A stretch of DNA of 64,000 bases from assembly GCF_012910705.2 (NCBI RefSeq), contig NZ_WTVG02000039.1, positions 372,001 through 436,000 of the forward strand. Direction: 5' to 3'. The stretch is from Aromatoleum anaerobium (GTDB lineage: Bacteria; Pseudomonadota; Gammaproteobacteria; Burkholderiales; Rhodocyclaceae). Position numbers and translations under genes: made by a program. The stretch's first letter is position 1. Each line of letters starts with the position of its first letter. The notes under the pieces were generated by a model that searched no databases, was not told where the DNA came from, and saw only the letters and a list, made by a program, of their open reading frames with translations. Below are positions 17,257 through 36,296 of this stretch, in pieces.

Positions 17257-17276
17257 CGTCGTCCAAGAAGACTATG
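17257..17276 (-). promoter_or_regulatory. catabolic-cluster box upstream of the SDR gene at 17076
   Basis: Read towards the gene the site is ATAGTCTTCTTGGACGACG, containing GTCT-N4-GGAC. Six further sites of the same form precede other genes of the cluster. Confidence 0.55.
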
Positions 17277-17540
17277 AACGCAGCCCGAAAATATCCTCAG
17301 TGAATCCACTCGCCGGGTTGCTCATGACGGTCCGGGCCAAGGGTTTAGATACCTAGTTGGGCCAAGATCGCCGCTGCAATCGGCGCGATATCGCCATCCT
17401 GCTCGCTTTGGCGCTGTCATGCCCGGTATAGTCCATTCGGACGACGGAGCGCAGTAGCACCGACGATAGTATCGAATCGCAACATGCCGGCCCCACTACA
17501 GCCAGCGACATTTCCACGAAAATCCTCGGGACAGCCCCAG

Positions 17541-18407
17541 ATGAAGACCATTCAAGCATTGATCGCGGCTGTGTCGCTGCTCGTCGCGCTGTCCTCCCCG
17601 GCTGCGGCCACCCCCGGGGACGCCACGGCAACCGCAACCCACGATGCGGCCCGCACCGCAGCCTTGCTCGACCGTGCCGAAGCCCACTACCGCGCCCAGG
17701 GCGAGAAAGCGCTTGCAGCCTTCAGCCAGGCCGGCGAATTCAAGGATGGCGAACTCTACGTCTACGTGCTCGGCCGCGACGGCGTCATGCTATCGAGTGG
17801 CGGTTCGTCGGCCGCGCTGATCGGGCGCAACTTGCGCGACATGACTGATGCCGACGGCAAGCCCTTCTTCCGCGAAATCCTCGAAGGAGCGAAATCGAAA
17901 GGCAACGGGGTCGTCGAATACCGCTGGTTCAATCCTATGGACGGGCGTACCGAACGCAAGATCGCCAGCTACCGCGCGGTCGGCGACGCGATCCTGATCG
18001 CCGGCTACTACGTCCCGCGCGCCTCGTTCGAACTTGCCAAATCCCTGCTGTGGCGCGCGGTGCACGAATACAAGCAGCACGGCGACCGCGCTTTCGAACA
18101 TTTCAACGATGTAAACGGCAGCTTCGTGCAAGATGAACTCTACGTTTTCGTCATCGGCCTCGACGACCAAGTCGTGTATGCGCACGGCGGCGCCCCGCGC
18201 CAGATCGGCCGCAATGTCGGCGAGCAGCGCGACGCCTCCGGCAAGTTCTTCGTCCGTGAAATGATCGGCATCGCCAAGAAGAAGGGCGAAGGGGAATTGC
18301 AGTACACGTGGCGCAATCCGGCAACGCAGAAAATCGAACCGAAGCGTACCTACGTCGTGCGCGTCGGTGACAAACTCATTGGCTCCGGGGCCTTTACCCT
18401 GCCCTGA
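17541..18407 (+). CDS. secreted double-Cache-domain protein
   Basis: A 288-residue protein with a signal peptide (MKTIQALIAAVSLLVALSSP, cleavage near AAATPG). Two Cache-like sensory modules follow: about 55-155 (GELYVYVLGRDGVMLSSGGS, FFREILEGAKSKGNGVVEYR) and about 160-285 (DELYVFVIGLDDQVVYAHGG, FFVREMIGIAKKKGEGELQY). No membrane helix follows, so it is probably a soluble periplasmic ligand-binding protein. A paralogue with the same layout lies at 37703-38581. The ATG at 17541 is chosen because it opens the signal peptide. The ligand is unknown; it may sense or bind the substrate of the catabolic cluster. Confidence 0.75.
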   Translation: MKTIQALIAAVSLLVALSSPAAATPGDATATATHDAARTAALLDRAEAHYRAQGEKALAAFSQAGEFKDGELYVYVLGRDGVMLSSGGSSAALIGRNLRDMTDADGKPFFREILEGAKSKGNGVVEYRWFNPMDGRTERKIASYRAVGDAILIAGYYVPRASFELAKSLLWRAVHEYKQHGDRAFEHFNDVNGSFVQDELYVFVIGLDDQVVYAHGGAPRQIGRNVGEQRDASGKFFVREMIGIAKKKGEGELQYTWRNPATQKIEPKRTYVVRVGDKLIGSGAFTLP

Positions 18408-18410
18408 GTT

Positions 18411-18440
18411 GGGTGGCGACACGCAGGTCGCACTCACCCA
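18411..18440. terminator. hairpin between convergent Cache and LuxR genes
   Basis: GGGTGGCGAC...GTCGCACTCACCC can fold into an imperfect stem at the convergent 3' ends. There is no T-run, so termination efficiency is uncertain. Confidence 0.35.
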
Positions 18441-19609
18441 TTGCGACTGAGCGCCGCAACGCTGTTCAGCATGATGCGCACGAGCTCGGTCTGGCGGCGC
18501 ACGCCGGTTTTCGAGAAGATCGAACGCAGGTGCGCGCGAGCGGTGTTGCGGCGGATGTTCAGCGCTTCGGCGGCCTCTTCAAGGGACAGTCCGTTGGTCA
18601 GTTCGAGCGCGAGCGCCGTTTCGGCCGGGGTCAGGTTGAACAGCTGCTTCGCGACCGCGCTGCTTGCGAGCGACTTGCCGGCGGCGTCGCGGATATAGAC
18701 GACTGCGGCCGGCTGACCCTTGCCTTCGGCCCATTCGCTCGATGGCACGACCTCGACGACCACGCCGAGGCTCACCAGCCCGGAGGGGCGGGCCACCGAC
18801 ATCGCCTCTGCAACTGTGATGTTTTCAGTGCCGTAGCGCGCGAACGCGTTACGCACAATGCGCTGTAATTCGCGGTTGTCGCTCGGGTAGGAAGCTTCCA
18901 GACGTCCGCCGACCACTTTGAGCCCGTCGCCGCTGGCGAGAATTTCCTTCGCGATCAGGTTCTGGTCCAGCACCTTGCCGCTCTCGTCGAGCACGATGGT
19001 CGCAATCGACAGGCGCCCGATCGCCTGCGAATACAGCGCACCGAGCGATTCACTGCGGTCGAGCAGATTGTGCATGTGCAGCGCACGACGCAGATGCGGC
19101 AGCAGGGCTTCACAGCGCGCGCGGTCCTCGGCCGAGAACTTCGGCGCGGATTCCGGCCGGGTAATGCGGAACCTCAGCTTGCCCGCGCCGGGCGTCGAGA
19201 TATCCACCCCCATCACATGAAACACGCCGCGCGGCGCGCACCAGTGCTGGTAATACGGCGAACGCCGCCACTCGGATTCGTTCATGACGTCGTCGACGGT
19301 GAACACGCGATCGGCCGGCTGATTGAGGAAGGGCGTGGCGCTGTGCGGGTAGGTCAGGTAATTAACCCTGCCACCCCCTTCAACGTCACCGACCGCGATC
19401 ATCAGCCCCATGTCGGTCTGGTCGGGCGAGCGCAGAATCAAGGTGACGTAATTCGCTGCGAACAGCTCCTGGAATAATTCGAGCGCGGCCGCCCAGAGCT
19501 TGGCGTCGAGAGCGGCGTCATACAGCGCGCCGACGATGCGGTCGTATGTCTCCAGTCCCAGGTTGGCATGCGCCAGGGCAAGCGCCGCGGCCTTTTTCGT
19601 TGACTCCAC
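18434..19609 (-). CDS. LuxR-family transcriptional regulator
   Basis: A 391-residue regulator whose C-terminus is a LuxR/GerE helix-turn-helix: LTPAETALALELTNGLSLEE followed by LNIRRNTARAHLRSIFSKTG. The N-terminal about 300 residues have no receiver aspartate motif and look PAS-like (IATIVLDESGKVLDQNLIAK), suggesting direct ligand sensing. Regulators of this build often stand beside DUF1302/DUF1329/RND gene sets for hydrophobic substrates. It is the only dedicated regulator in the 13.5-38.6 kb cluster and is therefore the best candidate to bind the seven shared boxes. Its own upstream region has no such box. Confidence 0.85.
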   Translation of the reverse strand: MESTKKAAALALAHANLGLETYDRIVGALYDAALDAKLWAAALELFQELFAANYVTLILRSPDQTDMGLMIAVGDVEGGGRVNYLTYPHSATPFLNQPADRVFTVDDVMNESEWRRSPYYQHWCAPRGVFHVMGVDISTPGAGKLRFRITRPESAPKFSAEDRARCEALLPHLRRALHMHNLLDRSESLGALYSQAIGRLSIATIVLDESGKVLDQNLIAKEILASGDGLKVVGGRLEASYPSDNRELQRIVRNAFARYGTENITVAEAMSVARPSGLVSLGVVVEVVPSSEWAEGKGQPAAVVYIRDAAGKSLASSAVAKQLFNLTPAETALALELTNGLSLEEAAEALNIRRNTARAHLRSIFSKTGVRRQTELVRIMLNSVAALSRNG

Positions 19610-19740
19610 GAGCTCTCCTCACCGAAGTTATTGGTTTAGGGGTTCAGGGAGTTTTCTCCTCTTCCCGTCTTTCTCGCACGCCCGCTCGGGACATCGCCAG
19701 CCCGGTGGTCGCGGTCCGCGACCGCCGGATCGTTGCAAGC

Positions 19741-20685
19741 TCACTGCACGGCAAGCCCCGCGACCAGTTCGGGCACCATCTCGAACAAGTCGCCAACCAG
19801 GCCATAGTCGGAAACCTGGAAGATCGGCGCGTCCGGGTCTTTGTTGATCGCGACGATAACCTTCGAATCCTTCATGCCGGCCAAGTGCTGGATTGCGCCC
19901 GAAATGCCGACCGCAACGTAGAGGTCCGGTGCGACAATCTTGCCCGTCTGGCCGACCTGATAGTCGTTCGGCACGAAGCCCGCATCCACCGCGGCACGCG
20001 ATGCGCCAAGCGCCGCGCCCAGCCTGTCGGCCAGCGGCTCCATCACTTCGCGATATTTTTCGCCGCTGCTGAGGCCGCGTCCACCAGAGACCACGATCCG
20101 CGCCGCGGTAAGTTCCGGTCGCTCGGACTTGCTGAGCTCGCGCCCGACCAGCCGCGAAACACCCAAATCCTCTCGTGGAGACAGTTCGCGCAGCGTCGCG
20201 TTCCCGCCCGCTGCCGCCGCCTCGAAAGCCGTGGTGCGTACCGTCAGCACCTGCATCGGTTCGTCCGACTCCACCGACACCATCACGTTTCCCGCGTAGA
20301 TCGGCCGCACATATCTACCGGGCGCGGCAATCGACACCACGTCCGACACCGGCGCGACGTCGAGCAGCGCGGCGAGCCGCGGCGCGAGATTCTTGCCGAA
20401 GCTGGACCCGCCCGCAAGTACCGCATTGAAACCTTCATCCCGGACGAGGCCGGCGGCGAGTGCCGCGAGATTTTCCACCAGCTGGTCACGGTAATGCGCG
20501 GCGTTCGCGCTGAGCACTTGTGCCACGCCCTGCACCGCTCCCGCTTCGGAAACCGCGGCCGCGCAATCGCAGCCGGCGACCAACACCTGCACCTCGCCGC
20601 CGAATTGCTGCGCCGCGCTGATCGCATTGAGCGTCGCCGCGGCGAGTTTGTGATTGTCGTGCTCGGCAATAACCAGAACCTTCAT
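19741..20685 (-). CDS. etfA: electron transfer flavoprotein subunit alpha
   Basis: A 314-residue EtfA, the FAD-binding partner of EtfB, shuttling electrons from acyl-CoA dehydrogenases to ETF-QO. The start [15 protein letters not shown] and the C-terminal FAD-binding signature ([66 protein letters not shown]) are unmistakable. It lies 14 bp after etfB in the same direction. ATG 20685 is preferred over the upstream 20703. Confidence 0.95.
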
Positions 20686-20699
20686 TTTTCGCAAACTCC

Positions 20700-21449
20700 T
20701 CAAATGACCTTGGCGTCGTGCCTGAGTTTCTCGATCAGCTCGGCCACGTCGGCGACCTTGACCCCTGCCTTGCGCGCGGGCGGCTCGGCATGCTGCAGAT
20801 GGCGCAGCCGGGGGGCGATATCGACGCCCAGATCGGCCGCCGGAATGACGTCGAGCGGTTTCTTTTTCGCCTTCATGATGTTCGGCAGCGTCGCGTAGCG
20901 CGGCTCGTTCAGGCGCAGGTCGGAGGTCACGACCGCCGGCAGCGGCAGCTCCAGCGTTTCCAGCCCGCCGTCGACTTCGCGCGTGACGCGGATCGTGCCC
21001 TTGTCGACCAACAGTTTCGATGCGAAAGTCGCTTGCCCCCAGCCCATCAGCGCGGCAAGTATCTGGCCGGTCTGGTTCGCGTCGTCATCGATCGCCTGCT
21101 TGCCGCAGATCACCAGTTGCGGCTGCTCGCGCTCGGCCACCGCCTTGAGCAGCTTGCCCACTGCCAGCGGCTGGAGTTCGGCTGAGGTCTCGACCAGAAT
21201 CGCGCGGTCAGCCCCCATCGCCAGTGCGGTGCGCAGGGTTTCCTGGCACACCGCGGCGCCGCAGCTCACCGCGATGACTTCGCTGGCGATGCCGGCTTCC
21301 TTCAGGCGCACTGCCTCTTCCACTGAAATTTCATCGAAGGGGTTGATCGCCATCTTGACGCCGGAAAGCTCCACCCCGCTGTGGTCCGACTTGACCCGGA
21401 CCTTGACGTTGTAATCGACCACCCGTTTCACCGGGACCAGAATTTTCAC
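20700..21449 (-). CDS. etfB: electron transfer flavoprotein subunit beta
   Basis: A 249-residue EtfB that starts at GTG 21449 behind GGGAGGCGCAA. Signature regions are [67 protein letters not shown] and [20 protein letters not shown]. It is followed directly by etfA. A box of the shared catabolic-cluster type lies about 100 bp upstream (21545-21564), so the etfBA pair is probably co-regulated with the oxidoreductases around it. Confidence 0.95.
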
Positions 21450-21544
21450 TTGCGCCTCCCACTTAGAGCATGATTTCGATGCACCGGCGGCCGCCAGCGA
21501 GGCGCCGGCCCTGCCTGCATCATCGGACAAGCGACGCCGCCGGG

Positions 21545-21564
21545 CATCCTCCATCAAGACTAAG
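21545..21564 (-). promoter_or_regulatory. catabolic-cluster box upstream of etfB
   Basis: Read towards etfB: TTAGTCTTGATGGAGGATG. It differs from the consensus in the right half (GGAG for GGAC). Confidence 0.5.
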
Positions 21565-21585
21565 CGGAATGGATGGGGCGCGGCC

Positions 21586-23396: not shown

Positions 23397-23499
23397 GACG
23401 TCCTCCTGTCTGTTTCGGTCGCCGTTTACCCGGCAACTGGATAGATAAACCGTCATTCCGGCCGGAAACCAGCAGCCTCAAACCCCTCACCGCCACCAC

Positions 23500-24723
23500 T
23501 CACACGAACGGGTCCGCATTCGGCAAGCCCAACATCACCGCCCCGTGCGAGCGCGCGTAGGCATCACTGTTGTTGGCGATGTGGCCGCGCGACTGGTGGA
23601 TGTCGCGAAACACGCGCTCGATCGGATTCGTCTTGTAAAGCCCTGACCCGGCACACGCCCGCATCAGGTCGTCCGCCATGCGGGCGCACAACTTAGGCAC
23701 CTGCGACGCCTGCGCGCGCTGCATCAGGCGCTCCTCGACCGGCATCCGCTCGCCGCTGCGCGCGCACTCGACGATGCGCGCGTAATTGCGGAACAGCACC
23801 AGCTTTAGCTGGTCGGTCACCATCATTGCCTCGGACACGGCCATCTGCGCATTCGGGTCGTCTGCGGTCTTCGCGCCGTGCTTGCCGACGTGGGCGGCGG
23901 CACGTGCGCGGAAACTGGCGATTGCGCCATCGAGCGCACCGATGCACGCCGACGACACCGCGCGCTGGAACACCTGGGTGAAGGGGATGCGATACACCCA
24001 GCCTGGATTCACCGCACGCCCCGGGCAGCCGGCGTCGCTATGGTCGTTGGTGCGCTGCGTCCGGTGTTCCGGCACGAAGACGTTGTCGACGACGATGTCG
24101 TGGCTGCCGGTCGCACGCAGGCCGAGCACGTCCCAGTTGTGCTCCACGCGGTAATCCGATTTGGGTAGCAGGAAAGTCGTGTGTTCGAGCGCGCCCGAGC
24201 CATCGTTCTTCGGTAGCAGCCCGCCAAGGAAGATCCACTCGCAATGCTCGACGCCGCTCGAAAAACCCCAGCGCCCGGAGAAGCGGTAGCCGCCGTTGAC
24301 CTTTTCGGCTTTGCCGACCGGCATGTAGGTCGAGGCGATACGCGTCGACGAATCGGTACCCCAGACGTCCTGCTGCGCCTGTTCGGTAAACAGCGGCAAC
24401 TGCCAGTTGTGTACGCCGATCACGCCGTAAATCCAGGCCGTCGACATGCAGCCTTCGGCGAGCGCCATCTGCACCCGGTAGAACACACGCGGATCGAGTT
24501 CGTAACCGCCCCAGCGGCGCGGCTGCAGTACGCGAAACAGCCCTGCTGCCTCGATCTCGCGCACCGACTCCACCGGCACCAGCCCGGCACGCTCGGCATC
24601 GGCCGCGCGCGCCGCCAGCCGCGGCGCGAGTTCGCGCGCACGCTGCAGCAGCGCGACCGCCTCCGCGGTCATGTAGTCTTCGGCGAGAACGCCTGCCACC
24701 TGATCATTTGTCAGAACACCCAT
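23500..24723 (-). CDS. acyl-CoA dehydrogenase-fold flavin monooxygenase (HsaA/HpaB-C2-like)
   Basis: A 407-residue protein of the group D flavin monooxygenases, which share the acyl-CoA dehydrogenase fold and use reduced flavin from a separate reductase to hydroxylate or oxygenate. Typical regions are AGLFRVLQPRRWGGYELDP, GCMSTAWIYGVIGVHNWQL, the flavin-contact RFSGRWGFSSGVEHCEWIF, WDVLGLRATGSHDIVVDNVF and the C-terminal FRDIHQSRGHIANNSDAYAR. HsaA acts on 3-hydroxy-secosteroids. The gene has AGGAGG before ATG 24723 and a shared box about 110 bp upstream. No HsaB-type flavin reductase is seen in the window. Confidence 0.78.
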   Translation of the reverse strand: MGVLTNDQVAGVLAEDYMTAEAVALLQRARELAPRLAARAADAERAGLVPVESVREIEAAGLFRVLQPRRWGGYELDPRVFYRVQMALAEGCMSTAWIYGVIGVHNWQLPLFTEQAQQDVWGTDSSTRIASTYMPVGKAEKVNGGYRFSGRWGFSSGVEHCEWIFLGGLLPKNDGSGALEHTTFLLPKSDYRVEHNWDVLGLRATGSHDIVVDNVFVPEHRTQRTNDHSDAGCPGRAVNPGWVYRIPFTQVFQRAVSSACIGALDGAIASFRARAAAHVGKHGAKTADDPNAQMAVSEAMMVTDQLKLVLFRNYARIVECARSGERMPVEERLMQRAQASQVPKLCARMADDLMRACAGSGLYKTNPIERVFRDIHQSRGHIANNSDAYARSHGAVMLGLPNADPFV

Positions 24724-24821
24724 TCCGCGCACCTCCTCGATATCGTGCCCGCCGGCAAGAAAATGTCTCATTGGGCCATATCACCCGTTGGCGCAAGGTT
24801 TTCACACGCCCCATGGCAACT

Positions 24822-24842
24822 CATCGTCTGAACGGACTAACG
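24822..24842 (-). promoter_or_regulatory. catabolic-cluster box upstream of the HsaA-like gene
   Basis: Read towards the gene: TTAGTCCGTTCAGACGATG, with GTCC-N4-AGAC. It shares the divergent intergenic region with a second box at 24911-24931 facing the other way. Confidence 0.55.
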
Positions 24843-24910: not shown

Positions 24911-24931
24911 CATTAACCCTTTTGGACGATG
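24911..24931 (+). promoter_or_regulatory. catabolic-cluster box upstream of the YCF48-like gene
   Basis: TTAACCCTTTTGGACGATG, about 80-100 bp before the start at 25012. The left half deviates (AACC); the right half GGACGATG is perfect. Confidence 0.5.
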
Positions 24932-25011: not shown

Positions 25012-26028
25012 ATGCGAACAGTTGTGGGCATGGCGATGGCATTGATCGTCGCACTCGCCGGCATCTTTGCATTCTCGCCACGCAGCGTACCGCCCTTGGC
25101 AGCGACCCGGATTCCGGTGGACCGGATGCAACTCAACAGCATCCTCCGCACCACTGCGGGCCTTGTCACCGCCGGCGAACTGGGCACCATCCTGGTTTCC
25201 GCCGACAACGGCGACACCTGGAAACCCGCCAGCCTGTCCGCCCAGAGGCAGGCGCTGATCACCCGCCTGGTCTTTGCCGACGACAAAACCGGGATCGCCA
25301 TCGGCCATGAAGGTTGGATCCTCAGAACTGCCGACGGCGGCCTGAACTGGGTGGAAGTCGCGTTCGACGAGAAGAACGGCGAGCCCCTCATGTCCGCCGC
25401 CCGACTGCCTTCGGGCGACTGGATCGCGGTCGGCGCTTTCGGTCGCACGCTGCGCTCGGGCGACGACGGAAACACCTGGCAGGAATTCACGCTCGCAGGT
25501 CAGGAAGACTGGCACCTGAACGACATCGCCGCCTCGGCCGACCGGCAACAATGGCTGATCGTCGGCGAATCGGGATCGGTGCTGCGCTCCGTCGACGGCG
25601 GCAAGGACTGGACGCCGGTTCCCGCCTTCTACAACGGTTCCCTGTACGGCGCGGTGCATCTTGGCGATGCGAACTGGGTCGCCTATGGCATGCGCGGCAA
25701 TGTTTTCCGCAGCGGCGACGGCGGCCTGACCTGGACCGCGTCGACCGTGCCGGCGCCCATCTCGCTGTACGGCCATACCCTGACCGCGGACGGCCGCCTG
25801 CTGCTGCTCGGTCAAGGCGGCATCGTGCTTGCCAGTAGCGACGCTGGCCAGAGCTTCAGCATCGTGCGCAAGAGTGGCCGCGCGAGCCTCACCGATATTT
25901 ATATCCGGGCGGACGGCAGTTGGCTACTTGCCAGCGATGGTGGGCTGCAAGTGCACAACCCCGCCGCCGAGGCGCCGGCAAAGGCCACGAAATCCAGCGC
26001 CCCGCCCCAGACTTCCGGAGTTTCCTGA
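25012..26028 (+). CDS. YCF48/BNR-repeat exported protein
   Basis: A 338-residue protein with an N-terminal membrane/signal segment (TVVGMAMALIVALAGIFAF) and a beta-propeller of YCF48/BNR-like repeats, seen as recurring blocks such as SADNGDTWKPAS, RTADGGLNWVEV, RSGDDGNTWQEF, RSVDGGKDWTPV and RSGDGGLTWTAS. AAGGAG precedes ATG 25012, and the stop overlaps the RND gene start (TGATG). YCF48-like genes are often paired with an RND permease in clusters for hydrophobic substrates, presumably as a periplasmic partner in substrate handling. The exact function is unknown. Confidence 0.8.
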   Translation: MRTVVGMAMALIVALAGIFAFSPRSVPPLAATRIPVDRMQLNSILRTTAGLVTAGELGTILVSADNGDTWKPASLSAQRQALITRLVFADDKTGIAIGHEGWILRTADGGLNWVEVAFDEKNGEPLMSAARLPSGDWIAVGAFGRTLRSGDDGNTWQEFTLAGQEDWHLNDIAASADRQQWLIVGESGSVLRSVDGGKDWTPVPAFYNGSLYGAVHLGDANWVAYGMRGNVFRSGDGGLTWTASTVPAPISLYGHTLTADGRLLLLGQGGIVLASSDAGQSFSIVRKSGRASLTDIYIRADGSWLLASDGGLQVHNPAAEAPAKATKSSAPPQTSGVS

Positions 26029-28490
26029 TGACGACCGCGACTTCCCTTTCCCGCACCGACGCCCTGGTAGCCTTTCTCGCCAGGGTGCTGATCGCGTGGC
26101 GCAAGCCGCTCGGCCTGCTGTTCCTGTTGGTGACCGTAGGCCTCGGCATCTCTGCCCTGAATACCCGCCTCGATCCAGGATTCAACAAACTGATTCCGCT
26201 GAAACACGAATACATGGGGGCATTCCTCGAACACTCCGGCACCTTCTCTGGCGCCAACCGTGTCATGGTCAGTGTGCACTGGAAAGGTGACGGCGACATC
26301 TACAACGCCGAATTCCTGCAGGTGCTGCGCAAGGTCACCGACGAAGTCTTCTTCATTCCCGGCGTCAATCGTGGTGGCGTGCGCTCGCTGTTCACACCGA
26401 ACGTCCGCTATATCGAAGTCACCGAGATCGGTTTCACCGGCGACGTCGTCATCCCATCGCGCTTCGAAGCCGACGCCACCGGCCTCGCGCAGGTACGCGC
26501 AAACGTTGCCAAATCCGGCGAAATCGGCCGGCTCGTCTCCAACGACCTGAAGTCCGCACTGGTCCAGGCCGACCTGCTCGAAATCAACCCGCAGACCGGC
26601 GAGAAGCTCGATTACGCCGACGTCGCGCGCAAGCTGGAACAGATCCGCAGCGAGTTCGCGAACGACCACATCGAGATCCAGATCGTCGGCTTCGCGAAAG
26701 TGATGGGCGACGTCATGGACGGCCTGTTCACCGTCGTCACCTTCTTCGCGATCGCGTTCGTGATCACCGCGCTGCTGCTGTGGTTCTACTCCCGCTCGCT
26801 GAAGCTCACCGCGCTCGCAATCGCGGTCGCGCTGTTGCCGGTGATCTGGCTGCTCGGCTTGCTGCCGCTGATCGGCTACGGCATCGACCCGATGTCGGTA
26901 CTCGTGCCCTTTTTGATCTTTTCGATCGGCGTGTCGCACGCGGTGCAGATGACCAACGCGTGGAAGCAGGACGTGCTGGCTGGATTGACCGCGATGGAAG
27001 CCGCCGAAAGCGCCTTCCGCAAGCTCGCCGTACCGGGCACGATGGCGCTGCTTGCGAACGCGCTCGGCTTTCTCGTCATCATGGTCATCGACATCCCCAT
27101 CGTGCACGAACTGGGGGTCACCGCCTGCCTCGGCGTCGCGCTGATGATCATGACGAACAAGATGTTCATGCCAATCATCCTGTCGCATCTGCGCCTCGAA
27201 CGCATCGCCCTGCACGCGCCGATCGAGACCCACGAGAAGCACGGCCTGTGGTGGGCGGTGTCGAGCCTGTCGAGGCCGCGTCCTGCGCTCGTGAGTTTCG
27301 CGGTGATGCTCGTGCTGCTCGGCAGCGGCACGTGGTTCTCGCGCCAGCTCCAGACCGGCGACGTCGGCACCGGCGTGCCGGAACTGCGCGCCGAATCGCG
27401 CTACAACCGCGACAACGCGCAGATCATTTCCAGCTACTCGATCGGCATGGACGTGCTGTCGGTTTTCGTCGAAACGGCAAACCTCGAAGAAGCCTGCCTG
27501 AACTGGGAGGTGATGAACGCGATCGAGCGCTTCGACCTCCGGATGCGCGGCGTCGACGGCGTGCAGTCGGTGACCACCGTTGCCGGCCGCGCCAAGCTCT
27601 ACGCCGCCGGCAACAACGAGGCAAACCCGCGCTGGGCCGCGCTGCAACGCTCCGAAGCCGCGCTGCGCACCGGCGGACGTGCCGCCAACCCGGAACTGGG
27701 ACTGAACACACACGGCTGCAAGACGATCCAGTTGGTGGTATTCCTCAATGATCACCAGGGGGCGACGCTGAAGCATGTCGTCGACGAAGTCCGCAAATTC
27801 ATCGACGCTGACCAGACACCGAACGTGCGCTTCCGCCTCGCCGGCGGCAACGCCGGCGTCGCTGCCGCGACCAATGAAGCGGTCGAACGCGCGGAAGTAC
27901 AGATGCTCGCGTCGATCTTCGGCGCGATCACGCTGCTGTGCTGGCTGACCTTTCGCTCATGGCGCGCGGTGCTCTGCGTGATCGTGCCGCTGCTGCTGGT
28001 CTGCATCCTGTGCAACGCGCTGATGGCCCTGCTCGGCATCGGCCTGAAGGTCGCGACGCTGCCGGTGATCGCACTCGGCGTTGGCGTCGGCGTCGACTAC
28101 GGCATCTATATCTTCGAACGCCTGCAGCACGAAATGGAGCATAACGGCGCCTCGCTGCGCGAAGCCTTCTACGAGGCGATGCGGCAGCGCGGTACCGCCG
28201 CGGTATTCACCGCAGTGACGATGTCGATCGGCGTTGGCACCTGGGCCTTCTCGGCACTCAAGTTCCAGGCCGACATGGGCGTGCTGCTGGCGTTCATGTT
28301 CCTGGTGAACGTGCTCGGCGCAATCTTCCTGCTGCCGGCGCTCGCCTGCTGGCTGGGCGTCGAAGCGCAACGCAAGAGACACCAGGCGACCGCCGTACCT
28401 CCCGCCGAAGAAGGGGCCACACGAAAAGCTGCCTCCTCCGCTGCAAAACCGACGGTACTCACCCAGGCACGCCCGGTGGCGATCCGGTAA
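26028..28490 (+). CDS. RND-superfamily (MMPL/HpnN-like) transporter
   Basis: An 820-residue membrane protein with two repeated halves. TM1 is near residues 25-45, followed by a periplasmic domain, five helices at about 230-390 (FFAIAFVITALLLWFYSRSL, SVLVPFLIFSIGVSHAVQM), TM7 at about 425-440, a second periplasmic domain, and a final helix bundle at about 625-780 (TLPVIALGVGVGVDYGIYIF). The GVGVDYGIYIFERL stretch is the MMPL-type TM motif. The start overlaps the YCF48-like gene. In similar clusters such proteins are thought to move hydrophobic substrates or lipids across the envelope, but direction and substrate are not known. Confidence 0.85.
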   Translation: MTTATSLSRTDALVAFLARVLIAWRKPLGLLFLLVTVGLGISALNTRLDPGFNKLIPLKHEYMGAFLEHSGTFSGANRVMVSVHWKGDGDIYNAEFLQVLRKVTDEVFFIPGVNRGGVRSLFTPNVRYIEVTEIGFTGDVVIPSRFEADATGLAQVRANVAKSGEIGRLVSNDLKSALVQADLLEINPQTGEKLDYADVARKLEQIRSEFANDHIEIQIVGFAKVMGDVMDGLFTVVTFFAIAFVITALLLWFYSRSLKLTALAIAVALLPVIWLLGLLPLIGYGIDPMSVLVPFLIFSIGVSHAVQMTNAWKQDVLAGLTAMEAAESAFRKLAVPGTMALLANALGFLVIMVIDIPIVHELGVTACLGVALMIMTNKMFMPIILSHLRLERIALHAPIETHEKHGLWWAVSSLSRPRPALVSFAVMLVLLGSGTWFSRQLQTGDVGTGVPELRAESRYNRDNAQIISSYSIGMDVLSVFVETANLEEACLNWEVMNAIERFDLRMRGVDGVQSVTTVAGRAKLYAAGNNEANPRWAALQRSEAALRTGGRAANPELGLNTHGCKTIQLVVFLNDHQGATLKHVVDEVRKFIDADQTPNVRFRLAGGNAGVAAATNEAVERAEVQMLASIFGAITLLCWLTFRSWRAVLCVIVPLLLVCILCNALMALLGIGLKVATLPVIALGVGVGVDYGIYIFERLQHEMEHNGASLREAFYEAMRQRGTAAVFTAVTMSIGVGTWAFSALKFQADMGVLLAFMFLVNVLGAIFLLPALACWLGVEAQRKRHQATAVPPAEEGATRKAASSAAKPTVLTQARPVAIR

Positions 28491-28534
28491 GCAGCAGCCC
28501 AAGCGACACATCGAACGCCACGGGATCGTGGCGC

Positions 28535-29768: not shown

Positions 29769-29932
29769 TTGCCATGCCAAACCCCCGAACAACTTCTATG
29801 CGAAGCGGGGCGCCTTGCCGAAGCGAACCGTGATCGCGGAGTCTACCCGTTTGGCGCCGTGCTCGCCGGCGGCGGGGAAATCGTCGCCACCAGCGTAAAT
29901 GACATCATCCACAGCCACGAGACCCAACGACA
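29769..29932 (+). pseudogene. nucleoside deaminase N-terminal remnant
   Basis: The translation LLCEAGRLAEANRDRGVYPF, GAVLAGGGEIVATSVNDI resembles the start of CMP/dCMP- or guanine-deaminase-type zinc enzymes. The zinc-binding HAE motif should follow within a few residues but is absent; instead the frame degrades (SHETQRHMRRG). It lies between the IS630 copy and the DUF1302 terminator. Probably a decayed fragment. Confidence 0.4.
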
Positions 29933-29982
29933 CATGCGGAGAGGTAAGCCGTGCGCGCCGCCAGCCGGCGCGGCGGTAATTG

Positions 29983-30012
29983 AAAAGCCCGCCGGACTTG
30001 CGTCGGGCGGGC
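29983..30012 (-). terminator. rho-independent terminator of the DUF1329-DUF1302 operon
   Basis: On the minus strand a GC-rich stem (GCCCGCCCGA...TCCGGCGGGC) is followed by TTTT. It lies 36 bp beyond the DUF1302 stop. Confidence 0.7.
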
Positions 30013-30047
30013 ACGGGACGGGGCGGCATCGCGCCGCCGCGAACGGG

Positions 30048-31712
30048 TCAGAAAGAGTACTTCATCACCAGCGAGAGTTGGTCGCGGTCCGTCTGCAGAC
30101 GCTGCTTCTTGAGATTGGCGACCTCGGCATCGCCCGCGTAGCCGAGATAGGTCATACCGATCTGGAAGTTGCGGTTATAGGTGAAGTTCGCACCGATGCT
30201 GTAACGGATGTCGCCCTCGCCGCCAACGCCGCCGAGGATCGTGCGCCCCCGTAGCTGCTGCGAATAGCTGATCGGCACCGCAAGATCCCAGCCCGTGAAC
30301 ACGCCCGGGTAGGTCAGCGACAGCGTGCTTGAGATCGCCAGTCCGCTCTTCCCGAAGCTCAGGTCCTTCGATGCCGGGAAGAACGCCGCGGCCGGGCCGA
30401 GCGCTTCGACGCCGGGGGCCTTGCGGGCCTTCACGTTGGAAATGTCCACATACGCGATCTCGCCCAGCAGCTGGGTCTGGTCGGCGATCGGAGTGCGCCC
30501 GAGATTGGCGAAGGCATTCAGGTTGACCTGCATCACGTCGGCACGGGTCGGGTTCGGGATCGTCGCCCCCGTTGCCGGATTGACCACGGTGTTGACCAGC
30601 GCCGGTGCTCCCTCCTTGTACGAAATCTCGCCCGCCACCGCGGCCACACCGAAGCTCGTGCTGAAAGTCGCTCCGATCAGCTTCACGTCGTCGAAATAGC
30701 GGACGCGGTACGAACCGTTGCCGATCTGTCTGCCGCCCCCCAGGGACACGCCGGGCGTGAAGGCGTTGATTTCGGGCAGCGGCGTGCGGTCATGGTAGTT
30801 GAGGTAGTAGATGCCGAGTTCGGTTTCGTCAGTCACCCGGTAGCGCGTACCCAGGCCCCACTGTCCGATATCGTCGGGCTTGATGTCCTTGCCGCGCTTG
30901 CCGAACGAACAGTCGGAAAAACCAATTGTCGGAATGGTCACATACGGTCCGAGACAAGAACCGCCCTCGCCCACGGCATCACTCGTGTTCAGAAACGAAC
31001 CTGGCGCCGGCGCGAGTGTTTCATGCCAGTCGTACTGCGCGTGCGCCATCAGCGACCACTTCGGGGTCATTTCCACCATCATCGAGACCTGGCTCTCGGG
31101 CAGCAGTTGGTCCTTGGTCTCGGTGCCGGGGATACCGGTTTTCGTGCCGTCCGCTGGCCCTTGGGCGAGCGAAATGCCGGGGAAGAACAGGGCTTCCCCC
31201 CAAGACACGACGTGGTTGCCGGCGCGCACGGTCGCGCGACTGCTCTCGGCGAAATCGAACGACGTGTAGAGATAAGCATCGAGAATCCGGCTGTATCCGC
31301 CGTGGAACCTACGCGCCTTGCTGGTGAATTCGTTGACATCACCCGCCTTGTTCACCGGGCCCTCGTTGTCGTTCGAGTGGTGATAGACGTCGTCGTAGAA
31401 GGTACTGGCCGACAGCACAAAACCGGTATCGCCCTTCGACAGCGTCGCATCCAGCAGCAGTCCGAGACGGTTTGCGGTAAGCGCACCCTTGTCAAAATTG
31501 TTGTCGCCGTCGTTGCCCCCGGCATTGGCGGCCAACACCTTGTCCGGCGATTCCAGCCGGGTCGACAGCGTGTAGGTCGAATTGACACGCCAGTCAAGCT
31601 TCATGCCGCTGTCGAACAAGATCGGCTCGCCGGCTGATACCGGCATTGTGATGCAGAGGCCCATGCCGAGCACCGCGACGGCGATCGGGGTTAGTCGGTT
31701 ATCCTTTCTCAT
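30048..31712 (-). CDS. DUF1302 family outer-membrane protein
   Basis: A 554-residue DUF1302 protein. A signal peptide (about 1-28, AVAVLGMGLCITMPVSAGEP) leads into a beta-rich body with LDWRVNSTYTLSTRLES, RAGNHVVSWGEALFFPGIS and a C-terminal strand ending in aromatic SLVMKYSF, as for an outer-membrane barrel. DUF1302 and DUF1329 genes are regular companions and are linked to uptake or export of hydrophobic substrates such as steroids, terpenes and alkanes. AGAGAGA precedes ATG 31712. It follows DUF1329 by 27 bp, so they form one operon. Confidence 0.88.
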   Translation of the reverse strand: MRKDNRLTPIAVAVLGMGLCITMPVSAGEPILFDSGMKLDWRVNSTYTLSTRLESPDKVLAANAGGNDGDNNFDKGALTANRLGLLLDATLSKGDTGFVLSASTFYDDVYHHSNDNEGPVNKAGDVNEFTSKARRFHGGYSRILDAYLYTSFDFAESSRATVRAGNHVVSWGEALFFPGISLAQGPADGTKTGIPGTETKDQLLPESQVSMMVEMTPKWSLMAHAQYDWHETLAPAPGSFLNTSDAVGEGGSCLGPYVTIPTIGFSDCSFGKRGKDIKPDDIGQWGLGTRYRVTDETELGIYYLNYHDRTPLPEINAFTPGVSLGGGRQIGNGSYRVRYFDDVKLIGATFSTSFGVAAVAGEISYKEGAPALVNTVVNPATGATIPNPTRADVMQVNLNAFANLGRTPIADQTQLLGEIAYVDISNVKARKAPGVEALGPAAAFFPASKDLSFGKSGLAISSTLSLTYPGVFTGWDLAVPISYSQQLRGRTILGGVGGEGDIRYSIGANFTYNRNFQIGMTYLGYAGDAEVANLKKQRLQTDRDQLSLVMKYSF

Positions 31713-31739
31713 AGTCTCTCTCCCCTTTCTTAGCATGAT

Positions 31740-33125
31740 CTAGTTGCCCGCGGCGCGCAGGGCGGCCGGAGTATATTGGTCGGGATTCAGGTCGCCCTTG
31801 TTCAGGACCGGACCGCGCTCGCGTTCCTGCCACAGGTTGTAGCCGACATAGCCGCCCGAGTTGAGATCGTGGTAGAAGGCCGATCCGGCCTGCCACGCAT
31901 TCATGTCGTACGCGTAGTAATGGTTAATGAAGGCGTGCTGCCAGAGCTGGCCGCGGGTGTCGTAGTAGTCGCCGACGGAGGCCTGCCAGTTGTCTTCGTC
32001 GATGAACATCACGCGCTTGCCAAAGAGATGACGGAATCCTTCCTTGAGCTTGCCTTCCAGCACCCATACGCGGCGCAACTCGTAGCGCATGAAATCCGGA
32101 TTGGCATGGCCCGGCTTCAGCAGATCGGCGTATTTCACATCCTTGCTGTGTACCCTGTAGGTATTAGCCGGAATGTACATCTCACGCTTGCCGTGCAATA
32201 TCCATTCATAACGACTCGGATCACCATTCATCAGGCGATCCTGGTCGATCGTCATCTTTCCACTTGTGCCCGCAAGCGGATTGTCAAATCCGTATACCGG
32301 CAGTTGACGCACCCGGCGGGTACCCGGGTCATAGTTCCACGCCAGGCGCTTGCCCTGGGCGAAATTGACGGGTTCCTGCGAGACGGTAATGGTGCCCTTG
32401 TCACGTTCCGGCAGCAGCGCACCAGTACGCGCATAGGCCATCACACCTTGAATCGGTTTGCCGACGTTATCCGGGTGGGTGACAACGTTAAGATTGAAGT
32501 TAAATTGACGCCCCCAGGAAATGTCACCCTTGGGGCTCACGTCCGCGATATCGCGCTGCAGCGTTCCCTCGTTGAATGCTCGGTAGGGAAAGTTCATGTT
32601 CGCCAGAACTTCCATTGCCAACTTCGGAATCGGGAACGGCGACGAGCCCATGAGCCCGGTGAATCCCAAGCCATCGTCGATCAGTTCGGCCTGTACCGCA
32701 TTTTTCTTCGATATCTCGCACACTGCGTCCGGGTAGCGGAAATCGCGACGGCTCGTATACACGGGCATGCGGAAGGTTTCGGGATAGCGCGCGAACATCG
32801 CCTTCTGCCCGTCGGACAAGTGATCGGCATATTTCGCGACATTGGCCGCGGTGATCGTGAACAGCGGCTTGTCGTCCGGATAGGCATCGAGCGGATGCTG
32901 GCCGACTTTCAGCGTGTACTTGATGCCGGGAGGAGTGCCGAGCCATTTGCCGGAAAACGCGGGGATCGTGCCGTCCTTATTGCCGGCGACTTCGGCGCCG
33001 ACGCAGGTCAACTCCTTGCCGAGCTTCGCGGCTTCTGCTTCGGACACCTTTGCACCGGCGGTGCTCGCCGCGAGCGACAACACCAGGGTCGTCACAACAG
33101 GCGCCCAAGGGCAGGTTTTCTTCAT
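31740..33125 (-). CDS. DUF1329 family exported protein
   Basis: A 461-residue protein with a clear signal peptide (VVTTLVLSLAASTAGAK). The mature part has typical DUF1329 features: LGKELTCVGAEVAGNKDGTI near the start, PGTRRVRQLPVYGFDNP, KREMYIPANTYRVH, RYELRRVWVLEGKLKEG and EDNWQASVGDYYDTRGQLW. The fold is related to lipoprotein carriers such as LolB, so it may carry hydrophobic substrate in the periplasm. GGAAGGAG precedes ATG 33125. A shared box lies 130-150 bp upstream. Confidence 0.88.
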   Translation of the reverse strand: MKKTCPWAPVVTTLVLSLAASTAGAKVSEAEAAKLGKELTCVGAEVAGNKDGTIPAFSGKWLGTPPGIKYTLKVGQHPLDAYPDDKPLFTITAANVAKYADHLSDGQKAMFARYPETFRMPVYTSRRDFRYPDAVCEISKKNAVQAELIDDGLGFTGLMGSSPFPIPKLAMEVLANMNFPYRAFNEGTLQRDIADVSPKGDISWGRQFNFNLNVVTHPDNVGKPIQGVMAYARTGALLPERDKGTITVSQEPVNFAQGKRLAWNYDPGTRRVRQLPVYGFDNPLAGTSGKMTIDQDRLMNGDPSRYEWILHGKREMYIPANTYRVHSKDVKYADLLKPGHANPDFMRYELRRVWVLEGKLKEGFRHLFGKRVMFIDEDNWQASVGDYYDTRGQLWQHAFINHYYAYDMNAWQAGSAFYHDLNSGGYVGYNLWQERERGPVLNKGDLNPDQYTPAALRAAGN

Positions 33126-33254
33126 TTGAGTCTCCTTCCGTGTGCGGAAAACGTCATGAATCTGGAAAGTCATGAAAGCGGATGTCCGTGCTAATAAAGC
33201 AATGCACTTTTCTTTTTCATCCGGTTTCATTTTTCGGCGAAGCCGCCACCGTCA

Positions 33255-33275
33255 CATCGTCCGATAAGACTAATT
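33255..33275 (-). promoter_or_regulatory. catabolic-cluster box upstream of the DUF1329 gene
   Basis: Read towards the gene: TTAGTCTTATCGGACGATG, the closest match to the consensus, with dyad GTCT-N4-GGAC. Confidence 0.6.
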
Positions 33276-33286
33276 GCCAAGTGATT

Positions 33287-35011
33287 TCATTCGGCGCCCG
33301 TGGAGGCGGTTGTATCGGCAGATGGGTATTCGCGCTTGAGCGCGGATTTGAGCAATTTGCCTGCTGGATTGCGGGGCAACGGCTCGCTCCGGACATGAAC
33401 GATTGCCGGCACCTTGTAGCCTGCGATGCGGCTCGCGACGTGCGCGCGCAGCGCCTCAGGGGTGACGCCCGCCCCACCGTCGATGACAACCGCGGCGGCG
33501 ACCGCTTCGCCGGTCTGATCATCGTGAACGCCGAACACCGCGGCTTCGAGCACCGCTGGATGCTCGAGCAGGCAGGATTCCACTTCAGCCGCGGCGATTT
33601 TCTCGCCGCTACGGTTGATCACGTCCTTGATGCGATCGACGACGAACAGGAGCCCCTCGTCGTCGACATAGCCGATGTCGCCGGTACGGAACCAGCCATC
33701 GACAAGCGCTTGCCGGCTTGCATCCGGGTTGCGCCAGTACCCCTGCATCACGGTCACGCCGCGCAGCCAGATCTCGCCCTGCTGCCCGACCGGCTGCGGC
33801 GCGCCATCGGCATCCGCAATATGCACGTCGATGATCGGCGACGGCAGGCCTGAACTGCGTGGCTTGTAGCGGAACAGCTCGCCCGAGGCCGCCGCGCCGA
33901 CGCCATTGGTTTCGGTCAGGCCGAAACCAATACCCGACATCGAATCGGGGCGGCGCGCGAAGACCTCGTCGATCAGCGGCTGCGGCAGCCCGGCGCCGCC
34001 GAAGCCAAGGCCGCCTAGGCTGCCCGTGAGCTGCGGGTCGTCGAAGCCCCGCGTCGCGAGCAGTTGCATCACCATCGAGGGCGCACCGCTGAACTGGGTG
34101 ACCTGCTCGTCACAAATCAGCTCAAGCGCCCGCACCGGGTCCCAGCGGTGCATGAATACGAGCCGCCGGCCGTGGCGCAGCGCCAATAGGAGCTGCGCGT
34201 GCAGGCCGCTGACGTGGAACAGCGGCACCGCGGTCAGCGTCGTCGGCGCGAAACCGCGCTGCATGATCGCCGCGACCGCTTGCGGAGAAGTCATCGCCGA
34301 GATCGCACCGATAAAATCGATGTTGAACAACGCTTGGCAGACCGAACGCTGCGACGACAACACGCCTTTCGCCTGGCTCGTCGCGCCCGATGTGAACAGG
34401 ATCAGCGCCGGATCATCGGGGCCGAGGCTGGGCCGCGGCAAAGCCGTTGGCGGCTGCGCGGCGAGCGTGCGGTAGGACAGCACGCCGACGGCGTCCGGCG
34501 GTGGCTCGGCGCCGACGAGCACGATGCGGCAGCCGGGTACCCCCGAATCCCCTTCGATGCGCTCGAAGCGTTCAGCGTCGCAGAACAGTACGGCCGGATC
34601 GACGTCCGCAAACCCGGCCCGCAGTTCGCCGCACAGGCCGAAGCTGTTCAGCGGCGCCGGCACCGCGCCAAGGCTTGCCGCGGCGGCAAAGGCCACCGCC
34701 CACTCCGGCCGGTTGCGCATCGCGATCGCGACGCGATCGCCGGATTTGACGCCGATCGCATGAAGCTGGGTTGCGATAGCATCGACATCGGCAAAGAAAC
34801 GCGTGAAGCTCCAGCGCTCCCCCTGATAAACAAGGAAACCCTTGTCGCCGTGCGCGCGGCCGGCGTCGATCAACTCAGGCAGCGTCGCAAACGCGTTGCG
34901 GTAAATTTTCGTCCGCCGCCCTTCGATCTCGCACTCCGTCAGTTCGAACGGCGCTCCCGGCGCCAGCAATTGCGCGCAAGTCTTCGCCACTGCATCCATG
35001 ATGCTAGTCAT
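33287..35011 (-). CDS. AMP-forming acyl-CoA ligase (ANL superfamily)
   Basis: A 574-residue enzyme that activates a carboxylic acid to its CoA thioester via an acyl-adenylate. Signature motifs are ILFTSGATSQAKGVL (P-loop A3), GIGFGLTETNG (A5), GWFRTGDIGYVD (A7 region), DRIKDVINRSGEKI (A8) and the C-terminal lysine motif PRNPAGKLLK (A10). It follows the MBL-hydrolase gene by 72 bp in the same direction, suggesting co-transcription. It is the only CoA ligase in the cluster and so the likely entry or mid-pathway activation step. The substrate cannot be read. Confidence 0.88.
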   Translation of the reverse strand: MTSIMDAVAKTCAQLLAPGAPFELTECEIEGRRTKIYRNAFATLPELIDAGRAHGDKGFLVYQGERWSFTRFFADVDAIATQLHAIGVKSGDRVAIAMRNRPEWAVAFAAAASLGAVPAPLNSFGLCGELRAGFADVDPAVLFCDAERFERIEGDSGVPGCRIVLVGAEPPPDAVGVLSYRTLAAQPPTALPRPSLGPDDPALILFTSGATSQAKGVLSSQRSVCQALFNIDFIGAISAMTSPQAVAAIMQRGFAPTTLTAVPLFHVSGLHAQLLLALRHGRRLVFMHRWDPVRALELICDEQVTQFSGAPSMVMQLLATRGFDDPQLTGSLGGLGFGGAGLPQPLIDEVFARRPDSMSGIGFGLTETNGVGAAASGELFRYKPRSSGLPSPIIDVHIADADGAPQPVGQQGEIWLRGVTVMQGYWRNPDASRQALVDGWFRTGDIGYVDDEGLLFVVDRIKDVINRSGEKIAAAEVESCLLEHPAVLEAAVFGVHDDQTGEAVAAAVVIDGGAGVTPEALRAHVASRIAGYKVPAIVHVRSEPLPRNPAGKLLKSALKREYPSADTTASTGAE

Positions 35012-35083
35012 TCACCCCTCCACGGCGACGGTGCTTCGCGCATCCTCGCCAATCCTCATTCATCGGCCGGATCACCTGCACAA

Positions 35084-36160
35084 TCAGACCGCCGCGCTGA
35101 AACGGTAAATCCCGTCATCGTCGAGCACCCTGCGCAGTTCACCCTGGTAACGCAGCCACGACAGATGCGCGATCGTCTCGCCGATCGCAAGCATGTCGTC
35201 GGCCGCACCGAGCAGCCGCGGAAACAGTTTCCCCATGGCCTCGAAGGCCGTGCAACTGCCCGAGTCCGCGACGAAATCGCGCAACACGTCGAACTGCTGG
35301 CGATGGTGTTCGCGCAGCTCGCGCACGCGCGCATGCAGCCCGCGAAACACGAGCTGATGCGACGGCAACACCAGTGTTTCGGGCGCCAGCCGGTCCAGCC
35401 GCGTGAGCGAATCGAGCCACAGCTGCAAGGGATTAGCCTCCGGCTCGACGCCCGACACCAGCACGTTCGAAGTGATGCGCGGCAATAGCTGGTCGCCGGC
35501 GATCAGGATGCGCTCGTCCTCGCAGTACAGGCAGGCGTGTTCGGGGGAATGCCCCTCGCCAATGACGATCCGCCAGCTACGCCCGCCGATGCGCATTTCC
35601 TCCCCTTCGCGGATACGGCGAAACGCATGCGGCTGCGGCGGCATGAAGGGGTCGCGGCGCACCGCACCGAACATCTTCTCTATACGCTCGACAGGCATGC
35701 CGGCGCGCAGATAGAACTGACTTAGCGGCGCCGGCAGCGGATCGGGCACCTGCTCGTTGAGCCCGCGCATCGTGAAAAACTCGCCGTGCGTCATGAACAG
35801 CGGCACGTCGAAGCGCTCCGTCAGCCAACTCGCCAAGCCGGCGTGATCGTAATGGAAATGCGTGCAAATGAGCCCTTTTACCGGCAGGCCGTCCAGTTGG
35901 CGGGCGGCGATCGTCTCCCACAGCTTTTTCGTGGTTCCGGTATTCAGGCCGGTATCGACGATTATCCAGCCGTCGCCGTCGCGTAGCAGGTAGACATTGA
36001 TGTGATCGAGCTGCATCGGCATCGGCATGCGTGCCCAAAGGATGCCGGGCGCAAGCTCGACGACCTCCCCGTCAGGCGCCGGTGGCGCAAAGGGATAGTC
36101 GAGCGCGCCCTGCTCTGCTGCTGAAGTCGCGGGGCCCGAATCAAGGCCGTGGTCTGGCAT
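35084..36160 (-). CDS. MBL-fold metallo-hydrolase
   Basis: A 358-residue metallo-beta-lactamase-fold protein. The metal ligands are THFHYDHAGL (HxHxDH, about residues 101-109), GEGHSPEHACLY, GDQLL and a C-terminal histidine in LVLPSHQLVFRG. The C-terminal helical domain (about 280-355) resembles that of thioesterase/glyoxalase-II-like family members in degradation clusters. It could hydrolyse a thioester or lactone. It is divergent from the KshA-like gene across a 203-bp region with two boxes. Confidence 0.82.
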   Translation of the reverse strand: MPDHGLDSGPATSAAEQGALDYPFAPPAPDGEVVELAPGILWARMPMPMQLDHINVYLLRDGDGWIIVDTGLNTGTTKKLWETIAARQLDGLPVKGLICTHFHYDHAGLASWLTERFDVPLFMTHGEFFTMRGLNEQVPDPLPAPLSQFYLRAGMPVERIEKMFGAVRRDPFMPPQPHAFRRIREGEEMRIGGRSWRIVIGEGHSPEHACLYCEDERILIAGDQLLPRITSNVLVSGVEPEANPLQLWLDSLTRLDRLAPETLVLPSHQLVFRGLHARVRELREHHRQQFDVLRDFVADSGSCTAFEAMGKLFPRLLGAADDMLAIGETIAHLSWLRYQGELRRVLDDDGIYRFSAAV

Positions 36161-36230
36161 GCACCCTCCTGTGACGTTCTGTAGACGAACCGCTACCGGT
36201 CACGAATCTAGGGCCAGGGCGGGCATGGGG

Positions 36231-36250
36231 AAACGTCCAAAAGGACGATG
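36231..36250 (+). promoter_or_regulatory. catabolic-cluster box upstream of the KshA-like gene
   Basis: AAACGTCCAAAAGGACGATG contains a perfect dyad GTCC-AAAA-GGAC, showing the symmetry of the site most clearly. It lies 114-133 bp before the start at 36364. Confidence 0.6.
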
Positions 36251-36274
36251 CCCGCAGCTGGAGCGGCGCCGGCA

Positions 36275-36296
36275 CTATCGTCCAAACAGGGTATGC
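36275..36296 (-). promoter_or_regulatory. catabolic-cluster box upstream of the MBL-hydrolase gene
   Basis: Read towards the MBL gene: ATACCCTGTTTGGACGATAG. The right half GGACGAT is conserved; the left half is weak. Confidence 0.4.

Follow-up and report, generated by a model that had tools for sequence, protein, structure and literature searches.

A shared dyad box in a steroid catabolic region of Aromatoleum anaerobium, the probable operator of TeiR/TesR-family LuxR-type regulators

In a stretch of 64,000 nucleotides of the Aromatoleum anaerobium genome (assembly GCF_012910705.2, contig NZ_WTVG02000039.1, positions 372,001 to 436,000; hereafter the window), similar dyad boxes stand in front of scattered genes of a steroid-like catabolic cluster, which raises the question of whether these genes form one regulon and which protein reads the box. 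An original prediction, made from the window sequence, had listed seven such sites and named the LuxR-type protein encoded among them as the likely binder. The computational follow-up described here indicates, on sequence grounds, that the box is very probably the operator through which LuxR-type activators of the TeiR/TesR family govern a regulon for 9,10-seco steroid catabolism. Judged by the parts of the literature examined, this is a newly described predicted operator and regulon for a known regulator family and not a new kind of system.

All seven sites were found where they had been placed, and they align without gaps on the coding strand, each of them resembling a 19-nt consensus, TTAGTCY-N4-RGACGATG. 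The RGACGATG half lies on the gene side in 7/7, which bears out the claim of a common orientation relative to the gene. The formula originally given, TTAGTC[T/C]TNNNNGGACGATG, is one base too long: a literal 20-nt scan of the genome recovers none of the window sites and gives 24 matches against 20 for the control, whereas the 19-nt register recovers them. The spacing of 80-200 bp proposed for these sites holds for six of the seven when measured to the called starts, and fails for the HsaA site, which lies closer (Table 1). The window contains 12 matches with at most three mismatches where 2.6 are expected, a number that none of 100 shuffles reached, and the MBL-hydrolase site, with its four mismatches, falls outside these 12. 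The dyad before the KshA-like gene is indeed perfect (CGTCC-N4-GGACG), yet this site is the poorest matrix match of the seven (leave-one-out rank 33). An eighth site, absent from the original list, precedes a Cache-domain gene.

Frequent occurrence of equally good sites inside unrelated genes had been named as the outcome that would speak against a regulon. In the whole genome (4.56 Mb, 40 contigs), the sites that depart from the consensus at no more than one position number 12, and all of them are confined to 249 kb of the contig that bears the region (C13:351818-600389); with three mismatches allowed, the genome scan is uninformative (207 matches against 183 in the control). The weight matrix that had been suggested as a check, built from the seven sites alone, was scanned over C13:340001-636000 (296 kb, of which 232 kb flank the window). 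At a threshold of 17 bits, and with two readings of one dyad merged, 17 held-out sites were found outside the window. Thirteen of them are fully intergenic, although the gene calls leave just 11% of the DNA between genes (binomial p 5e-10), and 15 are followed by a called gene that starts on the same strand 20-131 bp downstream. As for the other two, 489193 precedes an F420 reductase frame without a called start there and 351818 is intragenic.

The sites also display a fixed spacing to a promoter-like element. A −10-like hexamer, nAnnnT, occurs at offset 20 (A at offset 21, T at offset 25) in 18 of 28 sites chosen from the list of own sites, a set in which three sites are weaker and the dyad 513542/3 is counted in both its readings, and on which the offset was first noticed; the background is a mean of 1.06 per offset over 110 offsets (next best offset, 7). 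The same peak appears with z 5.8 in 32 own sites and z 6.5 in 241 sites of related loci, the latter linked by shared descent. When the hexamer is set as −12 to −7, the box covers −51 to −33 and its dyad is centred at −42.5, the usual position for a class II activator. A dyad centred near −42 from the start would fit a class II activator promoter; the predicted position is deduced from the hexamer at offset 20-25 in these 18 of 28 sites.

The LuxR-type protein of the window (TeiR1) shares with TeiR/TesR of Comamonas testosteroni, a LuxR-type positive regulator of steroid degradation, its location in a steroid region, a C-terminal LuxR helix-turn-helix (HTH) and 49% identity over residues 20-387 (homologue of strain ATCC 11996, i.e. 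TeiR); it is 86% identical to the homologue of Aromatoleum toluolicum. The HTH is recognised as GerE (PF00196, 2.4e-06; 27.5 bits, with the gathering score at 23.5). Only GerE and HTH_30 were detected by Pfam at 1e-3, and neither a kinase domain nor an autoinducer-binding domain was found in that search, the latter result speaking against a quorum-sensing LuxR of the N-acyl homoserine lactone receptor type. An AlphaFold2 model of moderate confidence (predicted local distance difference test, pLDDT, 73; predicted template modelling score, pTM, 0.46) comprises GAF-like, PAS-like and HTH parts. Given that confidence, fold matches were used for domain type only; phytochromes and further GAF/PAS proteins dominate the 50 listed, which include EL222 and some proteins that are themselves full-length kinases, so that the fold search adds little on the kinase question taken up below. 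A search of the PDB with the TeiR profile gave no sequence relative at E 0.01. In 23 of 73 homologues that were aligned, the HTH (321-384) is 86-98% and its recognition helix 94-100% identical to the window protein, with identity falling to 39% in the N-terminal part. Kinship with TeiR/TesR, co-occurrence with the box and the conserved recognition helix make TeiR1 the putative binder, as had been proposed. The regulon also holds a second TeiR-like protein (TeiR2; C13:577652-578815, locus L133) that is 40% identical to TeiR1. The TeiR2 gene lies, by eye, behind a chemoreceptor gene and an aldehyde dehydrogenase-like gene, and its A. toluolicum homologue (L162) is 82% identical. With two paralogues inside the regulon, either or both may bind, and some division of labour between them is conceivable.

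The box can be followed into Comamonas itself. In C. testosteroni ATCC 11996, a single contig carries all six sites without a mismatch (59-159 kb). The top two sites of this strain (29.5 and 29.1 bits) precede the orthologues of HsaA, which we take to be tesA2, and of HsaC (tesB), and a third (26.8 bits) stands ahead of a gene at the steA position, presumably steA judging from gene order. One report describes TesR of strain TA441, near-identical to ATCC 11996 TeiR, as required to induce tesB-tesR, tesA1-tesG and tesA2-ORF18 (PMC6895838). It also cites a report that tesR-like genes are confined to C. testosteroni strains, unlike the present analysis, in which homologues of the window protein were found in many further genera. 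No TeiR/TesR operator was found in the parts of the literature examined, although one may be in print, the primary TeiR paper lying outside that scope.

Co-occurrence of box and TeiR extends well beyond these two genera. In 73 loci with a TeiR homologue from named genomes, 218 positions score above 18 bits (a palindromic site may be counted two times), compared with 0.85 for matrices with permuted columns, and a site of this strength is present in 67 of the loci, which belong to Beta- and Gammaproteobacteria. Sites picked by the matrix have similar base frequencies in Rhodocyclales, Pseudomonas and marine gammaproteobacteria; those of Burkholderiales are more palindromic. Among 150 genomes of the family, seven contain a zero-mismatch site and all seven encode a TeiR-like protein (E<1e-50), which is present in 10 of the 150 (Fisher 4e-10). 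A sample of 280 genomes from the order includes three with TeiR (E<1e-80), which give 13, 6 and 4 matches to a stricter pattern, and one with a distant TeiR match (G322; 1.5e-32), which gives none; of the 277 genomes beyond the three, 55 have a match, never more than four. Matches with at most one mismatch in nine whole genomes bearing a homologue, relative to a reversed-pattern control, were 40/18, 50/23, 36/20, 26/22, 52/13, 14/25, 12/7, 43/9 and 51/14. Plasmid loci bearing HsaA (9 of 31 records) were used to separate the regulator from the pathway. Three with TeiR, from Vibrio alfacsensis, Burkholderia arboris and Caballeronia, have 5, 2 and 6 positions above 18 bits, and six without it (Novosphingobium x4, Sphingobium herbicidovorans, Streptomyces) have none, lack of TeiR here meaning no match at 1e-20 within the plasmid record, with the chromosomes of these strains outside the search. 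Equally placed sites precede many, but not all, of the orthologous operons of Vibrio, Comamonas (G240), Aromatoleum and two family genomes. The claim that the box ties the scattered genes into one regulon is supported, because specificity within the genome, the held-out sites, the fixed spacing of the −10-like hexamer and the sites before orthologous operons of other genera agree. The V. alfacsensis plasmid locus (L124) is a steroid-type cluster in which etfB, etfA and teiR follow each other as in the window, with operator sites. The plasmid comparison is limited by a LuxR-like gene of a different kind that has been reported on the plasmid of N. aromaticivorans (PMC12239570).

Several observations weigh against TeiR/TesR proteins as the readers of the box. 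The site C13:351818, with one mismatch, sits inside a called gene, 10 of the 28 sites have no hexamer at the common offset, and in G139 etfB is not directly preceded by any site above 15 bits. Six of the 73 homologue loci (four of them shorter than 6 kb) have no site above 14 bits, and three family genomes (G022, G129, G132) encode TeiR-like proteins yet lack a zero-mismatch site. The excess over the reversed control is found in eight of the nine whole genomes, barely so in one of these (L080, 26 against 22), and the Shewanella genome (L087) exhibits no genome-wide excess (14 against 25) although its locus carries sites. HsaA of at least 55% identity occurs in the same three order genomes only, so that the order sample cannot separate regulator from pathway. 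In the plasmid comparison lineage is a confounder, the TeiR-lacking controls being five alphaproteobacterial plasmids and one actinomycete; a clear steroid cluster is annotated in just one of these six, Novosphingobium sp. P6W (L127), and one (L132) carries a 16.0-bit site. Lastly, perfect sites occur in four family genomes (G027, G087, G114, G131) whose homologues reach only 40-50% identity and, in G131, are fragmented, which implies that TeiR1 need not be the sole binder. It is these genomes that give substance to the unlikely alternative that TeiR2 is the main binder of the box and TeiR1 serves a subset of sites or variant sites: in G027, G087 and G114 the proteins are 40-43% identical to TeiR1 and 44-48% to TeiR2, and the genes leading to TeiR2 have an upstream box of their own. 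However, the helix region of TeiR2 differs from that of TeiR1, and the proteins that occur with the box in Pseudomonas, Marinobacterium and Comamonas are TeiR1-like, with a near-identical recognition helix; in Vibrio a 60% TeiR1 homologue occurs with it. The proteins of G240 and G388 are likewise closer to TeiR1 (49%) than to TeiR2 (35-37%).

The box might instead be bound by an unrelated regulator (TetR, AraC or other, inside or outside the cluster) that merely travels with TeiR. The region does hold an AraC gene (Pfam) with a box in front and, by eye, three TetR-like genes, and its regulators were partly surveyed; nevertheless, this explanation is improbable, since two of the three TetR proteins have matches in only 3 and 7 of 12 genomes and TeiR-like proteins in 12 of 12, in a sample picked for motif or TeiR and to that extent biased in favour of TeiR. 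These two TetR regulators were rejected as binders for their inconsistent presence. It has further been reported for C. testosteroni that TeiR acts as a kinase, in which case it would stand upstream and another protein would bind the box. Reviews and a paper cite this report and describe a kinase-dependent mechanism (PMC6678751, PMC8399759, PMC8700777), unlike the direct binding proposed here, and this too counts against the TeiR/TesR operator. In the window protein, however, Pfam gives HTH domains only, and no other part comes close to the HTH in conservation. The predicted GAF/PAS-like fold with an HTH, at the moderate confidence of the model, together with the lack of a Pfam kinase domain, favours direct DNA binding, and the kinase explanation appears decidedly improbable. 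An origin of the sites by chance or as a dispersed repeat is hardly credible: two window sites do carry three to four consensus mismatches, but the shuffles, the localisation in the genome, the held-out sites, the fixed −10 spacing and the occurrence in other genera all argue otherwise.

If the box is the operator of TeiR/TesR proteins, a dimer of the C-terminal HTH would bind the dyad (TTA)GTCY-N4-RGAC(GATG). With the dyad centred near −42.5, the gene-proximal half would touch the −35 region and the protein could contact RNA polymerase, as in class II activation, and the N-terminal part, predicted to be GAF-like and then PAS-like, may sense a steroid or a breakdown product. The genes etfB, etfA and teiR, consecutive on the − strand, would form one operon. 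With teiR following etfB-etfA under one box and the TeiR2 gene downstream of a chemoreceptor gene under a second, positive feedback would arise. The regulon would encompass ring cleavage (HsaA-, HsaB-, HsaC-, HsaD-, KshA- and KstD-like proteins), electron transfer, transport, a chemoreceptor and F420 synthesis. Steroid catabolic genes of Actinobacteria are likewise controlled by KstR and KstR2, which act through dispersed operators; these are TetR-type repressors freed by pathway intermediates, whereas the box here lies at a predicted activator position. EL222-type activators combine a PAS-like domain with a LuxR HTH, as predicted for TeiR. EL222 senses light (LOV), whereas TeiR has an additional GAF-like domain and presumably responds to a steroid-derived signal. 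EdcR of Caenibius tardaugens (estrogen) likewise regulates a steroid cluster in a proteobacterium and has a palindromic operator, but it is described as a repressor, and its operator, TnnCnnTACnAnTnGTAnnGnnA, overlaps the −10 and is unlike the box in sequence (PMC8700777).

The least expected part of the regulon is coenzyme F420, for which two gene sets lie behind boxes in a betaproteobacterium. The first (L043 13.2-19.1 kb) comprises cofE, cofD, cofC and cofGH by family search, with fno (F420 reductase) split, by eye, across two reading frames; its box is conserved ahead of the same genes in A. toluolicum, the only other genome examined in this respect. The second (L048 from 16.1 kb) comprises fno, cofE, cofD and cofC in a family search that did not extend to cofGH. 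The broader proposal that a single TeiR operator, common to Beta- and Gammaproteobacteria and also plasmid-borne, here adds F420 biosynthesis (two cof sets) and an adjacent luciferase-like monooxygenase group to the steroid regulon is tentative, a little short of an even call. If true, it would mean that these bacteria possess an F420-dependent step of steroid breakdown and produce the cofactor on demand. A concrete candidate operator makes the regulation directly testable and would help to settle whether TeiR activates genes by binding DNA or acts as a kinase. It also allows members of the regulon to be predicted in each genome, even where, as with F420 synthesis and the chemoreceptor, the genes lie far from the classic clusters, and box-bearing promoters could be used for steroid biosensors.

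Table 1. Putative operators and associated genes; plain positions are those of the window, C13 positions those of the contig. Distance is to the called start (bp), mismatches are to the consensus, and rank is the leave-one-out matrix rank among window positions. SDR, short-chain dehydrogenase/reductase.
Feature	Position	Strand	Context or basis	Distance	Mismatches	Rank
Putative operator ATAGTCTTCTTGGACGACG	17257..17275	-	Upstream of SDR (16297-17076, -)	180	2	6
Putative operator ATAGTCCATTCGGACGACG	17428..17446	+	Upstream of Cache-domain gene (17541-18407, +; Pfam sCache_2)	94		
Putative operator TTAGTCTTGATGGAGGATG	21545..21563	-	Upstream of etfB, etfA, teiR	95	1	7
Putative operator TTAGTCCGTTCAGACGATG	24822..24840	-	Upstream of HsaA-like oxygenase (23500-24771, -)	50	0	7
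Putative operator TTAACCCTTTTGGACGATG	24913..24931	+	Upstream of YCF48/BNR gene (25012-26028, +), MMPL transporter (26028-28490, +)	80	2	7
Putative operator TTAGTCTTATCGGACGATG	33255..33273	-	Upstream of DUF1329 (31740-33125, -), DUF1302 (30048-31712, -)	129	0	2
Putative operator AACGTCCAAAAGGACGATG, perfect dyad	36232..36250	+	Upstream of KshA-like Rieske oxygenase (36364-37470, +)	113	3	33
Putative operator ATACCCTGTTTGGACGATA	36276..36294	-	Upstream of MBL-fold hydrolase (35084-36160, -)	115	4	9
TeiR/TesR-family LuxR-type protein, proposed binder	18434..19609	-	GerE Pfam; predicted GAF-like, PAS-like, GerE HTH parts			
etfA	19741..20685	-	Pfam			
etfB	20700..21449	-	Pfam			
HsaA-type flavin monooxygenase oxygenase component	23500..24771	-	Pfam; NCBIfam HsaA 4.2e-111, under model cut-off			
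KshA-type Rieske oxygenase	36364..37470	+	Pfam KshA_C 1.7e-60			
Site outside window	C13:441940		Precedes SDR			
Site outside window	C13:455924		Precedes HsaC-like extradiol dioxygenase			
Weaker site, 13.8 bits	C13:458286		Precedes thiolase			
Site outside window	C13:462071		Precedes 60-aa frame without recognised kind			
Site outside window	C13:464086		Precedes AMP ligase			
Site outside window	C13:464148		Precedes GTP cyclohydrolase FolE2			
Site outside window	C13:466539		Precedes SDR; Cache gene on opposite side			
Site outside window	C13:484182		Precedes MFS transporter, then HsaD-like gene			
Site outside window	C13:489193		Precedes F420 reductase-cofE-cofD-cofC-cofGH			
Site outside window	C13:513542/3		Precedes SDR and enoyl-CoA hydratase			
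Site outside window	C13:517851		Precedes KstD-like dehydrogenase			
Site outside window	C13:539789		Precedes inositol-monophosphatase family gene			
Site outside window	C13:574241		Precedes HsaB-like flavin reductase			
Site outside window	C13:574323		Precedes chemoreceptor; second TeiR-like gene two genes further			
Site outside window	C13:591893		Precedes acyl-CoA dehydrogenase; luciferase-like monooxygenase two genes further			
Weaker site, 15.9 bits	C13:591976		Precedes second F420 gene set			
Site outside window	C13:599197		Precedes AraC regulator			
Site outside window	C13:600371		Precedes SDR			

HsaA is the best NCBIfam family (NF045629) of the HsaA-like window protein, whose 371 bits stay below the equivalog cut-off of 450, and the pathway assignment therefore rests on the gene set and on the C. 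testosteroni relative at the tesA2 position, to which this protein is 67% identical. In the NCBIfam rankings of the respective proteins, HsaA, HsaD and 3-oxosteroid 1-dehydrogenase come first, HsaC second and HsaB third, all under their cut-offs. The HsaA-, KshA-, HsaB-, HsaC-, HsaD- and KstD-like genes share the region with the LuxR-type gene of the window.

Other features of the region were noted along the way. Near the opposite-facing site 462071, two neighbouring frames (L042 4755-5716) each match part of a sulfatase family. Two CysN-like sets with CysQ-like genes were seen by eye (L043 19.2 kb to L044, and L046), and one of these CysQ-like genes is the inositol-monophosphatase family gene (Pfam) behind the site 539789. 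Within the window, a sulfoacetaldehyde acetyltransferase-like gene (by eye) is present in duplicate about 13 kb apart (46192-48030 and 59387-61225), identical in 1839 of 1839 bases, and three consecutive same-strand genes with the appearance of tyrosine recombinases (8364-11565, by eye) adjoin the catabolic region.

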